Source of the DNA: Synechococcales cyanobacterium C42_A2020_086 | Lineage (GTDB): Bacteria; Cyanobacteriota; Cyanobacteriia; Elainellales; Elainellaceae | DNA: 64,000 nt | Direction of reading: 5' to 3' | Assembly: GCA_015272325.1 (NCBI GenBank) | Contig: JACYLU010000036.1 | Coordinates: forward strand, 248,001-312,000 | Shown here: in pieces, positions 17,777 to 39,576 of the stretch | How the letters are laid out: every line of letters begins with the position of its first letter | How positions within the stretch are numbered: the first letter of the stretch is position 1 | Notes under the pieces: model-generated | What the model saw: only the letters and a program-made list of their open reading frames with translations | Database searches by the model: none | Told to the model about the DNA's origin: nothing | Program-made: the position numbers and the translations under genes

Positions 17777-20700
17777 ATGAGTGCTCCAGTCGCTTCTTTC
17801 ATTGCATCTGTGGCTTCTGCACCCGCCCAGCTTGAGGCCTATTACCAGGAAATCAAGGCTGTGATCCTTAGCCGCCAGAATGCAATCACCGGATTGCTGC
17901 CGGCAAGCACGGCGATTACTGCCCACGGTAACTACACCGACGCCTGGGTGCGCGACAATGTCTACAGCATTTTGGCAGTGTGGGGGCTGGCGCTGGCGTA
18001 TCGCAAGCTCGATGAAAACCAGGGACGCGCTTACGAGCTAGAGCACAGCGTTGTTAAGCTAATGCGCGGTCTGCTGTTTGCCATGATGCGGCAGGCGCAC
18101 AAAGTCGAGCAGTTTAAGCACACACAGTCGCCGCTGGATGCGCTGCACGCCAAGTATGACACCCATACCGGCGATAGTGTGGTCGGTGATGACGGCTGGG
18201 GACACTTGCAATTGGATGCGACATCGCTGTATCTGCTGATGCTGGCGCAAATGACGGCGTCGGGGCTGCAAATTATTTTCACCATCGATGAGGTGAATTT
18301 TATTCAAAACCTGGTCTACTACATCGGTCGTGCCTACCGCACTCCGGACTATGGCATTTGGGAGCGCGGCAACAAGATCAATCACGGCAATCCGGAGCTG
18401 AACGCCAGTTCCGTGGGTATGGCTAAGGCGGCTCTGGAGGCGATCAACGGTCTTGATTTGTTCGGCGTGCGCGGTAGCCAGACTTCGGTGGTCCATGTGC
18501 TGCCTGATGAGATTGCTCGTACCCGGATTACGCTAGAGTCGCTGCTGCCGCGAGAGTCTGCTTCCAAGGAAGTGGATGCGGCGGTGCTGAGCGTGATTGG
18601 CTACCCGGCCTTTGCAGTTGAGGATCCGGCTCTGGTAGAGCGCACCCGCACGGCAATTGTCAGCAAATTGCAGGGGCGGTATGGCTGCAAGCGGTTTCTG
18701 CGAGACGGGCACCAAACCGTCCTGGAAGACAGCACCCGCCTGCACTACGAACCCTGGGAGCTGAAGCAGTTTGAGCATATCGAATGCGAGTGGCCGCTAT
18801 TCTTCACCTATTTGCTGCTGGATGCTCTCTTCCGTGGCGACCGCGAGCAGGTTGAGGAGTATCATCAAAAGCTACAGCCGTTGCTCGTTGAACAATGTGG
18901 CTGGAAGCTGCTGCCCGAGCTGTATCGAGTGCCAGCGGAGTTGATCGAGGCAGAGCGGGCCCAGCCCCAGAGTCAACCTCGCGTTCCCAACGAAAACGTG
19001 CCGCTGGTATGGGCCCAAAGTCTGTATTTGCTGGGGCAACTCCTGCGGGACGGGTTGCTGTCTTTGGGTGACATTGACCCCTTAGGACGCTATCGCCGCG
19101 CGAATCCCCATCGTCAGCCGCTGGTCCAAATTGCCCTGCTAGCCGAGGACGAAACCCTGCAGGCTGAGCTAGCCACCTACGGCATCGACACCCAAACCCC
19201 CACTCAGGTTGCTCCAATTCAAGTCCGCCGGGCTGAGGAACTGGCAGCCATCTATCACCAGATCGGGCGCAACGATAAGCTAGAGCTGACCGGCCGCCCG
19301 ATCCGCCGCCTCCGCAGCCTCACCACCTCGCGGATTTTTCGAGTGCGCGGCGAAACCGTTGTATTTCTGCCGTCGTTTCTCGATCCGCAGCAGTTTTACC
19401 TCACCCTCGATTACCACTTCCTGGTCGCGCAAATTAAGGGCGAGCTGTCGTACATTCAGCGCCACTGGGATCAGCTCGGTCGCCCGACGATGACGCTGCT
19501 GCTGACCCACGCCATGTTTGAAGGGGAACGGGGTGACAGCATTGAACGGTCGCCGCTGCTGAAGCTGCTGAAGGAGCTGCGCGATGGCAACTGTAATGGG
19601 GTGATGGTGAAGCTGGGGCATTTAAACCAACTCATGCTGACGGCCGGATCTGAGCGTATCGATTTTGTCCATGACTTGCAGCTCTTTCCAGCTTCGGTGC
19701 AGGATTCGGCTCCGGTGCCCTACTACCTCACCTTCTACCCCGACCGCAACCGCCCCCTCAGCAACACCCAGGAGTTTTTGCTGTCCTATGAGACTCAGAT
19801 TCCACGCCTGCTGGACCAGTTGCGCCACTCCAGCAACCTCTACGAGCAAATCGATCTGCTGGAAACTCTCAGCCAGTTGGGCGGCTTGGATCTCGATACT
19901 GGACTGGGCGAAGCTGGTGATCTAGTAACCGTGGCGGATCTGCTCGATGAGGTGTATGGCAAAGCTAGCGACTTGCGGCTCTGGGCGGTGATTCGACGGG
20001 CCGCCGGTCTGCTGAACAAAATCGATATTGGTTTATCGGATGCGGTCACAGATATTCTGGTGCGCGGCAAGCAGATCGCCGTGGGCAAAGCCTATAGCGA
20101 AGCATCGCTGATCACCGCCCCGATGCCACCCGACGAAATCATGGAAAAAATCCAGACCTTCTGCGGCAGTGACGTGCGCGAGCGACCGCTGACCCAGGAG
20201 ATCTTGATCTACCTCGGTGTCCTCATCAAAACTGATCCGCAATTGTTCAACGGGTTATTGACCCTGCGCGTCGGCTATCTGATTCTGCTAATCACCAGCG
20301 AGCTGGCCCGCGAGCAGCAGGTCACCCCCGACGAGGCTTACGAACACCTGATGCAGCTCAGCCCCTTTGACGTTAAAATGCGTCTCAGCCGCGTCTTGGC
20401 AGGCTACGAGGACCTCAACCAAACTCTGTTTCAGCAGGAGTCGTTGCATCTGCGGCAGCAGCAGGCGATTCAGTGGGTAGTGTCTCCAGATGCGGAGGGC
20501 GGCGACCGAACCACCGACTGGTGGAAACAGCGGCAGCGCGACGGTGCCCTCAACCGGGTGCCGAAAGGCTTTTATCCTAAAGTTTGGCAGGTGCTGCAAC
20601 ACTGTAAAGGGCTGGTGATCGGCGACAAGCTGGATCGGCGCAACCGCCTCGATAGCGAACTGCTGCTAGCCGAAATGACCCCCGGCGAAAAGAACTTTGC

Positions 20701-21073
20701 ACTGCAAGTTGAGCATCTGCTGAACAAAATCCAGGCTCCCGAATATCGCCAGGTCAACATCGAGGCGCTGATGGAGCTGTCCACGATCGTCGAGCAAAAT
20801 CCGGAGCTGCAAATCGAAGAATACATCGTTCTGGATGTGCTGATCGGTCACGCTGTTCGCTTGGCCTGGCTCGATCGCTATCCGCAGCAGGCAAGCATCT
20901 ACGATCAGCAGAAAGGTATGGCCTGGCGCTCTTTTTACGAAACCTCGCCCTACGTCTGCGCCAGCTACATCGCTAAAGCCCTGCGCTTCCTAACCGAGCT
21001 AGGACAAGAACAACTCAAAGAGGAAGAGAGTCAAGCGGAAGAGAGTCGTTTTGATGCCAGCAGCAGTTCCTAG
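17777..21073 (+). CDS. Phosphorylase kinase alpha/beta-subunit-like protein (GH15-type fold)
   Basis: This 1,098-residue protein resembles the regulatory alpha/beta subunits of eukaryotic glycogen phosphorylase kinase from end to end. The N-terminal (alpha/alpha)6 GH15-like domain contains DAWVRDNVYSILAVWGL (from residue 55), ELEHSVVKLMRGLL, VGDDGWGHLQLDATSLYLL, ASSVGMAKAALEA and IECEWPLFFTYLLLD. The middle part has LSGRPIRRL-like and DQQQFYLAL-like stretches (here LTGRPIRRL and DPQQFYLTL). The C-terminal domain keeps the ALNRVPKGFYPKVWQVLQ motif (about residue 923 on) and APEYRQVNIEAL. In animals these subunits hold and inhibit a kinase; in bacteria such proteins are often annotated as glycoside hydrolase family 15. 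No signal peptide, so cytosolic. Catalytic activity is not established. It is followed by a 2TM protein gene after about 135 bp. Confidence 0.88.
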   Translation: MSAPVASFIASVASAPAQLEAYYQEIKAVILSRQNAITGLLPASTAITAHGNYTDAWVRDNVYSILAVWGLALAYRKLDENQGRAYELEHSVVKLMRGLLFAMMRQAHKVEQFKHTQSPLDALHAKYDTHTGDSVVGDDGWGHLQLDATSLYLLMLAQMTASGLQIIFTIDEVNFIQNLVYYIGRAYRTPDYGIWERGNKINHGNPELNASSVGMAKAALEAINGLDLFGVRGSQTSVVHVLPDEIARTRITLESLLPRESASKEVDAAVLSVIGYPAFAVEDPALVERTRTAIVSKLQGRYGCKRFLRDGHQTVLEDSTRLHYEPWELKQFEHIECEWPLFFTYLLLDALFRGDREQVEEYHQKLQPLLVEQCGWKLLPELYRVPAELIEAERAQPQSQPRVPNENVPLVWAQSLYLLGQLLRDGLLSLGDIDPLGRYRRANPHRQPLVQIALLAEDETLQAELATYGIDTQTPTQVAPIQVRRAEELAAIYHQIGRNDKLELTGRPIRRLRSLTTSRIFRVRGETVVFLPSFLDPQQFYLTLDYHFLVAQIKGELSYIQRHWDQLGRPTMTLLLTHAMFEGERGDSIERSPLLKLLKELRDGNCNGVMVKLGHLNQLMLTAGSERIDFVHDLQLFPASVQDSAPVPYYLTFYPDRNRPLSNTQEFLLSYETQIPRLLDQLRHSSNLYEQIDLLETLSQLGGLDLDTGLGEAGDLVTVADLLDEVYGKASDLRLWAVIRRAAGLLNKIDIGLSDAVTDILVRGKQIAVGKAYSEASLITAPMPPDEIMEKIQTFCGSDVRERPLTQEILIYLGVLIKTDPQLFNGLLTLRVGYLILLITSELAREQQVTPDEAYEHLMQLSPFDVKMRLSRVLAGYEDLNQTLFQQESLHLRQQQAIQWVVSPDAEGGDRTTDWWKQRQRDGALNRVPKGFYPKVWQVLQHCKGLVIGDKLDRRNRLDSELLLAEMTPGEKNFALQVEHLLNKIQAPEYRQVNIEALMELSTIVEQNPELQIEEYIVLDVLIGHAVRLAWLDRYPQQASIYDQQKGMAWRSFYETSPYVCASYIAKALRFLTELGQEQLKEEESQAEESRFDASSSS

Positions 21074-22034: not shown

Positions 22035-22937
22035 ATGATCACGCTAGAGAACCCTGAACTGAAACTCACGATTCGCCCCGATTCGGGTGGACGGATCGAT
22101 CAGATCTTCGACCGAGAAACGAATCGCGAATGGCTTTGGCATCCCTCTGGCTATGATGCCTCTCAGTCGCGATCCCTGCCGCTGGGTGCTAGCTTTGATG
22201 ATCACTGGAGCGGTGGTTGGGACGAGATTTTTCCCAACGATGCAGCCGGTGAGTTCCGCGGTCGTTCGCTGGTGGATCACGGCGAACTCTGGTCGCAAGC
22301 ATGGACGGTGGTAGAGGCAGACTCCCGTCAAGTGCAGCTCCGCTATTGCGCCCAAACCGTGCCGGTGCAGATTGCAAAAACCATCTACCTCGATCCCACA
22401 CGGCCGCGGATAACAATCGATTATCGGTTTGAGAACCAGTCGCACGACACCATTCCATTTTTGTTTAAGCAGCACGCGGCGATCGCCATTGATGCCGGAG
22501 ATGAAATTCTGCTGCCCGACTGCCTGATCGAGCCGGCTGTGCTAGAGTTTAGCACTTGGATTGGTCAACCCGAAAAGACCTCTTTTCCAAAAGCCTTCGC
22601 TGCCGACGGCAACAAGATTGACCTCCGCTATACACCCCCGCCCTCGTCTCAACTGCGAGAGTTCTACTACAGCTCCAATCTGACTGCCGGATTTTGCGGT
22701 GTGCGGCATGGTCGCTCCAAATCGGCGCTAATCATGCGGTTTGATACCGCTGCCTTTCCCTATGTTTGGGTGTTTCAGAGCTATGGTGGCTGGAACGGCT
22801 ATTACGTGCTGGTGCTGGAGCCAGCTACAACCATGCCCTACGATCTGGAGACCGCCTGCCAACACAACACCTGTGCTCAGATCAAGCCACGGGAAGTGCA
22901 GCAGCGTCAGCTCATCGTCGAGTTACAGCGTTCCTAG
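22035..22937 (+). CDS. Aldose-1-epimerase/mutarotase-like protein
   Basis: A 300-residue beta-rich protein of the galactose-mutarotase fold. The N-terminal PELKLTIRPDSGGRIDQI resembles the strand and loop that start aldose 1-epimerases, and WDEIFPND and PFLFKQHAAIAI carry plausible active-site acids and a histidine. The family includes true mutarotases and many sugar-binding relatives, so the substrate is uncertain. No signal peptide. Its proximity to the phosphorylase-kinase-like gene is suggestive of carbohydrate metabolism but about 200 bp separate it from DUF3181. Confidence 0.72.
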   Translation: MITLENPELKLTIRPDSGGRIDQIFDRETNREWLWHPSGYDASQSRSLPLGASFDDHWSGGWDEIFPNDAAGEFRGRSLVDHGELWSQAWTVVEADSRQVQLRYCAQTVPVQIAKTIYLDPTRPRITIDYRFENQSHDTIPFLFKQHAAIAIDAGDEILLPDCLIEPAVLEFSTWIGQPEKTSFPKAFAADGNKIDLRYTPPPSSQLREFYYSSNLTAGFCGVRHGRSKSALIMRFDTAAFPYVWVFQSYGGWNGYYVLVLEPATTMPYDLETACQHNTCAQIKPREVQQRQLIVELQRS

Positions 22938-38034: not shown

Positions 38035-39576
38035 ATGATCACAGACGCTAACAACATTGGTCGTATTCTGCAAAACCGCTATCGTCTCCTGCGACTCCTC
38101 GGGCAGGGGGCTATGGGTCAGGTGTATGCGGCTGAAGATGTAGCGTTGGGAGGAATTCCGGTCGCGGTGAAATTTCTGTCGCAGGCTTTGCTGAATCGCC
38201 GCATGCGCGATCGCTTCGAGCGGGAAGCCAAAACCTGTGCTCAGTTGGGTCAACGCAGCATTCATATTGTGCGTGTCACCGACTATGGCGTTGATGAAAA
38301 CGAGATTCCCTTCTATGTCATGGAATATTTGAAGGGAGAGAGCCTCAGCGAAGTGATCACGCGCCAGTTCATGACGCTACCCCGTTTTCTGAGTTTGACT
38401 CGGCAGATTTGCCTAGGGCTACAGTGCGCCCATCAGGGGATTCAGATCGACGGACAGCACTATCCCATTGTTCATCGAGACATCAAACCCAGCAATATTT
38501 TAGTCAGCCAGGATGAAACCCTAGGCGAGTTGGTTAAAATTCTCGACTTTGGCATTGCCAAAATGCTAGAGCCGGAAGGACACCAAACCCAGTGCTTTAT
38601 GGGCACGCTCGCCTATTCCTCGCCTGAGCAAATGGAGGGACGCGAACTCGATGCCCGGTCGGATATTTATAGTCTGGGCGTGATGATGTACCAGATGCTG
38701 ACCGGGAAAATGCCGTTGAACGCAGATACCCATTCCTTCGGAGGGTGGTATAAAGCGCATCATTTTCAGGTGCCCCAATCCTTTGAGGCGGTCAATGCCA
38801 ACCTCAAGGTCCCTAAGGTGCTAGAGAACCTAGTGATGGCTTGTTTGGCGAAGTCTGCGAATGAACGCCCGCAGACCGCTACCGAGGTCCTGAAAGCCCT
38901 GGAGCCTCTAGAACAACGCTTCGGAACTGGACGGCAAGTGGCTCGCCGCATTGAAGCCACACTGTCGCGGTTACCCGTCAACTCCGACCCCAAATCGCAG
39001 ACGGTGATATCGGCATCCATTGATGAAGTGATTCGGGCAGCAACCTGGCCCAGCACAATGCCACTAGCCGATATTGTGTTTCCCAAGGCAATGCAGACTA
39101 GCAGTAGCACCTTCGCGACTCTATGGATAATGCTGCCCAAGGCAGAAATTCGCAAGCGCATGGTCTGCACCCGCTATAACCAGTTTCTGTTTCTGGAAGC
39201 GCCTCACCCTATGGTGCTCTGGCTAACCGTGCTCTATAACCGGGGTCACGATCCGCGCTGGCTACCCTGCTACCTCGATTTAAAGACCCCTCAGGGGCGG
39301 CAAATGGCCAACCTGCTAGGCAAGAATGGGCAGTATCGGCTGTTATTCTTTGCCCAAGAGGAGCCACAGCGCTGTGCCAATATCCAGTCCGCTACAATTG
39401 CTGAAGCTCAGTGCCGGCTGCTGCACGAATGGGCTGTAGCTGGGCAACTCTCTAAGGCTGCTCCCAACCCCACAGTGAGCAAGGAGCATTTGCGAGGAGC
39501 ATTAGAGAATATCAAACCGCAAATTCTGACCAAGCTAGAAAGCCTCTACAGCCCAGAGGACGAATTGCCTCACTAG
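38035..39576 (+). CDS. Serine/threonine protein kinase with cyanobacterial C-terminal domain
   Basis: A 513-residue Hanks-type kinase. Residues 15-290 hold the kinase domain: glycine loop LGQGAMGQVY, VAVKFL (Lys46), HRDIKPSN (catalytic Asp149), DFGIAKM (Asp171) and the activation-segment end GTLAYSSPEQM. The C-terminal part (about 330-513) is soluble, without membrane helices or PASTA repeats. It carries ICTRYN-like and WLPCYLDLKTPQGRQMA stretches that I associate with a domain found in several cyanobacterial kinases. Substrate and signal are unknown. The gene is convergent with the universal stress protein gene, with about 70 bp between them. Confidence 0.93.
   Translation: MITDANNIGRILQNRYRLLRLLGQGAMGQVYAAEDVALGGIPVAVKFLSQALLNRRMRDRFEREAKTCAQLGQRSIHIVRVTDYGVDENEIPFYVMEYLKGESLSEVITRQFMTLPRFLSLTRQICLGLQCAHQGIQIDGQHYPIVHRDIKPSNILVSQDETLGELVKILDFGIAKMLEPEGHQTQCFMGTLAYSSPEQMEGRELDARSDIYSLGVMMYQMLTGKMPLNADTHSFGGWYKAHHFQVPQSFEAVNANLKVPKVLENLVMACLAKSANERPQTATEVLKALEPLEQRFGTGRQVARRIEATLSRLPVNSDPKSQTVISASIDEVIRAATWPSTMPLADIVFPKAMQTSSSTFATLWIMLPKAEIRKRMVCTRYNQFLFLEAPHPMVLWLTVLYNRGHDPRWLPCYLDLKTPQGRQMANLLGKNGQYRLLFFAQEEPQRCANIQSATIAEAQCRLLHEWAVAGQLSKAAPNPTVSKEHLRGALENIKPQILTKLESLYSPEDELPH

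Follow-up and report, generated by a model that had tools for sequence, protein, structure and literature searches.

A gene in the 64,000-nucleotide stretch of cyanobacterial DNA analysed here (the window) encodes a protein that is homologous and collinear over its full length to PHKA and PHKB, the alpha and beta subunits of phosphorylase kinase (PhK). Residue conservation among cyanobacterial sequences indicates that this single bacterial chain unites the sugar site of human alpha with the ADP-site residues of human beta; in the human subunits the two sites are partitioned. The homology itself is not new, as the Pfam family KPBB_C already matches these proteins; the two-site composite in one chain is new as far as the searched literature shows. 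A search of the literature available without subscription returned no study of, or biochemical data on, any cyanobacterial member. The 'glycogen phosphorylase kinase' named in the abstract of a marine Synechococcus proteomics study was set aside, since the main text identifies it as glgP.

The gene is an intact frame of 1098 amino acids with an ATG start and no interruption (table 1), and is the only gene with a GH15 domain in the 5.9-Mb host genome, in which the window spans positions 248001–312000 of contig C37. Pfam detects Glyco_hydro_15 at residues 18–833 (E = 1.3e-100) and KPBB_C at residues 845–1079 (E = 1.3e-107), both with scores far above the cut-off; a single chain in which KPBB_C follows a GH15-like domain is the arrangement that characterizes the PhK alpha/beta family. 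In phmmer searches of the PDB, the only strong sequence matches are human PhK alpha (PHKA1, E = 1.9e-257) and beta (PHKB, E = 2.3e-217), with collinear segments reaching the C-terminal domain. The initial annotation had proposed full-length homology from the motifs DAWVRDNVYSILAVWGL, VVKLMRGLL, HLQLDATSLYLL and NRVPKGFYPKVWQVLQ. Each of these is present in the translated frame, and the proposal was borne out by the Pfam domains, the PDB searches and the AlphaFold match to both human chains. A similarity limited to the N-terminal GH15 fold, which had been named as the result that would speak against it, is ruled out by the KPBB_C match, the phmmer alignments and the fold search, all of which continue through the C-terminal domain. 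Contamination with eukaryotic DNA is likewise ruled out by the orthologues in many cyanobacterial genomes, the bacterial neighbours and the unbroken frame. Near the gene, positions 22035–22937 (+) of the window give a weak DUF4432 match just below the cut-off, perhaps an aldose-epimerase-like protein; this neighbourhood is not conserved.

Table 1. Features of the PHKA/PHKB-like gene, with positions in the window.
Feature	Position	Strand	Basis
PHKA/PHKB-like protein, 1098 aa	17777..21073	+	Open reading frame, translation, Pfam GH15 and KPBB_C, PDB PHKA1/PHKB, AlphaFold2 model and fold search
GH15-like domain, D1 of PhK, residues 18–430	17828..19066	+	Identity of 62% with human alpha and 49% with human beta; fold match to 5z3a
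Tyr53, equivalent of GH15 Tyr48	17933..17935	+	Invariant in 114/114 cyanobacterial and 11/11 generic GH15 sequences; human alpha has Gln and human beta has Asp
W57-V-R59-D60, GH15 substrate-binding WxRD	17945..17956	+	No variation in W, R or D among cyanobacteria or among 11/11 generic GH15; beta has lost W and R
Helix, residues 79–105, counterpart of alpha 68–94 and beta 105–131 in the pseudo-twofold alpha1/beta1 dimer of PhK	18011..18091	+	Sequence mapping; interface from PMC10978961
R185-A-Y187-R188, matching the beta ADP-diphosphate binders R211/Y213/R214	18329..18340	+	185, 187 and 188 invariant in 114/114; A/Y/K in alpha; R185 and R188 each in 1/11 generic GH15
Glu196, GH15 general acid, human alpha Glu185	18362..18364	+	Sequence mapping
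Arg248, counterpart of Arg274 in the ADP pocket of beta; alpha has His	18518..18520	+	Sequence mapping
Glu381, GH15 general base, human alpha Glu371, Lys408 in beta	18917..18919	+	Sequence mapping
D2-like domain, residues 431–630	19067..19666	+	Identity of 34.5% with alpha and 40.5% with beta
E600–N605, where alpha has Lys588/Tyr593	19574..19591	+	Docking residues not kept; 605 variable in cyanobacteria
KPBB_C (PhK C-terminal domain), residues 845–1079	20309..21013	+	Pfam; residues 912–1080 match the PHKA C-terminus 8xyb_A, Z = 16.5

The bacterial chain is nearer to alpha and to beta than these are to each other, as judged from pairwise identities. It shares 53% with human alpha over 610 aligned D1–D2 residues (62% in D1) and approximately 49% over 907 aligned residues of the whole chain; the values for human beta are 47% over D1–D2, 49% in D1 and 42% over 981 residues. 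The two human chains share only 42% (D1–D2) or 39% (overall) with one another. The D2 domain resembles beta slightly more than alpha.

An AlphaFold2 model of the protein was built from a 51-sequence alignment (mean pLDDT 79, pTM 0.76) and ranked against known folds with Foldseek and VIA-align. In this comparison with PhK, which the initial annotation had suggested, PHKA and PHKB chains rank first among PDB entries and align with most of the protein, with Z of about 40, and the model has the five-domain architecture of PhK alpha and beta (8jfk_A, Z = 41.3; 8jfl_B, Z = 39.2). They are followed by the solved GH15 glycosidase 5z3a, which aligns with residues 11–428 (Z = 23.7). Confidence is low at residues 194–200 and 260–275, around the catalytic acid and near the ADP site. 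In human PhK, a helix-mediated pseudo-twofold dimer interface between alpha1 and beta1 has been described (PMC10978961). The bacterial counterpart of this helix lies at residues 79–105; over residues 84–106, identity is 78% to alpha (D1 average 62%) and 61% to beta (D1 average 49%), a conservation above the domain average that fits a possible homodimer.

Using KPBB_C as a probe in 194 sampled genomes of the phylum, we found matches above the cut-off in 48, all belonging to Cyanobacteriia. They include picocyanobacteria, whose protein is 45–48% identical to that of the window. Among 14 control genomes, KPBB_C was found only in Synechococcus elongatus. Full-length orthologues with 63–83% identity occur across many cyanobacterial genomes, and within the host's own family the gene is present in nearly every genome. 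A search for viral or phage copies found none, and plasmid records gave distant D1 matches only. Comparison of gene order revealed no conserved operon beyond local synteny in Nostocaceae, so the gene behaves as a stand-alone unit, and the neighbourhood lends no support to a role in glycogen metabolism. Glycogen phosphorylase is present in all carriers tested. In a phylogenetic tree in which eukaryotes were represented by two sequences, both human and taken from the PDB, PHKA and PHKB lie together on one side of a branch; their branches are very long, and the AU test (p = 0.22) does not favour a single point of attachment to the cyanobacterial sequences. A cyanobacterial source of the eukaryotic subunit, raised in the initial annotation, is thus one possible direction of transfer.

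The sites described in human PhK were mapped onto 114 distinct cyanobacterial sequences. The GH15 catalytic acids, whose inspection the initial annotation had suggested, are E196 and E381; both are intact and invariant in all 114, including sequences only 45–48% identical to the protein encoded here. At the sequence level, the acid/base pair and the Tyr48 equivalent of a GH15 hydrolase (E196, E381 and Y53) are all present. Intact catalytic residues combined with demonstrated hydrolase activity had been counted in advance against the reading of the initial annotation; of this pair, it is the intact residues that we find. In glucoamylase, Tyr48 of GH15 positions the catalytic water. Its counterpart Y53, the tyrosine four residues before W57, is missing from both human chains. 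The Asn of the GNFPQ motif (N407), lost in human alpha, is probably kept in the cyanobacterial chains, as judged from a hand alignment.

Human alpha retains the catalytic pair Glu185/Glu371 but was inactive when given maltose, isomaltose or glycogen; human beta is without some of the catalytic residues (PMC10978961). By analogy with alpha, which has the pair yet is inactive, intact acid/base residues need not imply activity. The loss of Y53 from both human chains fits the reported absence of glucoamylase activity in human PhK and may be the cause of the inactivity of alpha; its presence would predict a more competent sugar site in the bacterial protein.

In human beta, ADP is bound through Arg211, Tyr213, Arg214 and Arg274 (PMC10978961), and our comparison covers these phosphate-binding residues as given there, adenine contacts not being among them. 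Their equivalents R185, Y187, R188 and R248 are invariant in 114/114 cyanobacterial sequences. Human alpha, which has kept the acid/base pair, carries Ala, Tyr, Lys and His at these positions and has thus lost three of the four, whereas human beta has kept the ADP residues and lost the catalytic base (Lys). There are 115 D1 columns invariant in cyanobacteria, of which 77 agree with both human chains, 26 with alpha only, seven with beta only and five with neither. The ADP residues account for three of the seven beta-only columns (hypergeometric P of about 6e-4, which serves as a guide only, as the pattern had been seen beforehand and the related sequences amount to one state), and the residues universal in GH15, W57, R59, D147 and E381, all belong to the alpha-only set. 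As a control, we used 11 generic GH15 proteins, taken from cyanobacteria or encoded on plasmids from several phyla; a twelfth, L187, was left out because of a wrong reading frame. The possibility that RxYR is a general GH15 motif was rejected for R185 and R188: each occurs in only one of the 11 proteins, so the arginine cluster is not shared by GH15 at large. Position 248 is often R or K in generic GH15 and constitutes weaker, less specific evidence.

We tentatively favour, at a little short of an even chance, a reading in which the protein is a kinase-free, ADP-responsive oligomer that binds and probably hydrolyses alpha-glucan and that resembles PhK alpha/beta before their duplication. As a stand-alone member of the family, it would work without a dedicated PhK-type kinase. 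The N-terminal GH15 barrel, with its complete glucoamylase site, would bind and probably hydrolyse alpha-linked glucose ends, such as those of glycogen or malto-oligosaccharide. The adjacent R185/Y187/R188/R248 site, equivalent to the ADP-diphosphate site between D1, D2 and D4 of human beta, would read the energy charge and move D2–D5 relative to D1, and the D1 helix together with the C-terminal domains would hold a homo-oligomer together. A duplication in eukaryotes would then have split the two sites, alpha keeping the acid/base residues of the sugar site and gaining kinase docking, and beta keeping the ADP site. That the protein is the living equivalent of the ancestor itself, an ADP-gated hydrolase or sensor of alpha-glucan that had no kinase and whose sites were divided on recruitment to a calmodulin-dependent kinase, is conceivable, and we would put it at not much better than one chance in three.

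The nearest known relatives differ from the bacterial chain in several respects. Human alpha (PHKA1, 8jfk/8z5r) is collinear with the bacterial chain from the GH15-like D1 through KPBB_C and retains the acid/base pair, but has lost R185, R188 and R248 (A/K/H), Y53 and N407, and has gained the docking residues K588/Y593, insertions and a farnesylated CaaX motif; the docking residues and CaaX are absent from cyanobacteria. Human beta (8jfl), also collinear over the full length, keeps the ADP-diphosphate residues and carries a CaaX motif, but its catalytic base (now K408), WxR and Y53 have been lost. The glucoamylases, trehalases and isomaltose hydrolases of GH15 (e.g. 5z3a) share the barrel fold and the set Y53/R59/D60/E196/E381, but are devoid of D2–D5/KPBB_C and of the RxYR...R cluster.

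The sugar site might also belong to a plain GH15 glucosidase with additional C-terminal domains, in which the arginine cluster is structural and there is no control by ADP. The full catalytic set including Y53 and the fold match to 5z3a and glucoamylases are what such an enzyme would be expected to show. This explanation appears unlikely to us, because R185 and R188 are not only invariant in cyanobacteria but also kept in human beta, which has no catalytic base, and are not conserved in generic GH15; the strong conservation of KPBB_C among the orthologues also argues against it. Alternatively, the protein may be a catalytically dead sensor or scaffold that binds glycogen, as human alpha appears to be. 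Alpha has no detectable activity with an identical acid/base pair, and acarbose is reported, in work cited by PMC10978961, to bind and activate PhK. That every catalytic residue is invariant across the 114 sequences, and that Y53 and probably the GNFPQ Asn (from the hand alignment), both lost in alpha, are retained, makes a dead enzyme decidedly improbable.

A further alternative is that the protein is a regulatory or scaffold subunit of a cyanobacterial Ser/Thr kinase, in which case PhK-like control of glycogen phosphorylase would already be bacterial. Full-length homology to the PhK regulatory subunits agrees with this, as do the approximately 30 Pkinase matches and several glycogen phosphorylases of the host genome. 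The Ser/Thr kinase gene noted by the initial annotation about 17 kb away, and regarded there as unlinked, is real (window 38080–38895; PF00069, E = 6e-44); it is one of the many in the genome, and we likewise found no link. PHKA and PHKB proper belong to a hexadecamer that also contains the gamma kinase and calmodulin; comparison of gene neighbourhoods revealed neither a conserved kinase neighbour nor any PhK-type partner gene linked to the PHKA/PHKB-like gene. In human PhK, Lys588 and Tyr593 of alpha dock the N-lobe of the kinase (PMC10978961). This pair is absent across the 114 cyanobacterial sequences, which have E600 and a variable residue 605, and a C-terminal CaaX farnesylation motif is found in 0/114. 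A broad kinase partnership is unlikely because the gene is retained in picocyanobacteria, each of which has only two partial Pkinase matches, compared with 30 here, and we consider the kinase-subunit explanation very improbable. The earlier suggestion of an ancient sugar-sensing or scaffold protein remains plausible and can be made more specific: the chain retains the whole GH15 catalytic set and the ADP-phosphate residues of beta, but lacks the kinase-docking residues of alpha.

The purpose of the glucoamylase-like domains in animal phosphorylase kinase is an open question, the site of alpha looking intact and showing no activity (2024 structure paper, PMC10978961). A single-chain bacterial relative offers a simple system for probing their original role and a concrete hypothesis of how alpha and beta were subfunctionalized. 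Such a protein may show what the PhK subunits did before a kinase was attached, and may reveal an uncharacterized energy-linked step in cyanobacterial glycogen use.

Several minor observations concern related genes. The host genome contains several genes of the glycogen phosphorylase family (PF00343; C26, C35, C6, C8 and C37). Escherichia coli has a distant match, approximately 25% identical and confined to part of D1, which we take to be PkgA of the ETT2 locus on the basis of PMC3977695, where PkgA is named. In the 3.8-Mb genome G051 (family f6), the gene is present as a broken copy that contains several stop codons (L030, C1:2013633–2014415), pointing to a recent loss, and genome G197 has two diverged full-length copies (L147 and L032). 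A 439-amino-acid GH15-like protein devoid of KPBB_C (L031, genome G054) has its best PDB matches in PhK alpha/beta and not in glucoamylases, and is possibly a shorter relative. Two trehalase-type GH15 genes (L176 in G085 and L178 in G004) abut a second long open frame, and two relatives on plasmids adjoin genes for trehalose-phosphate synthase or phosphatase.
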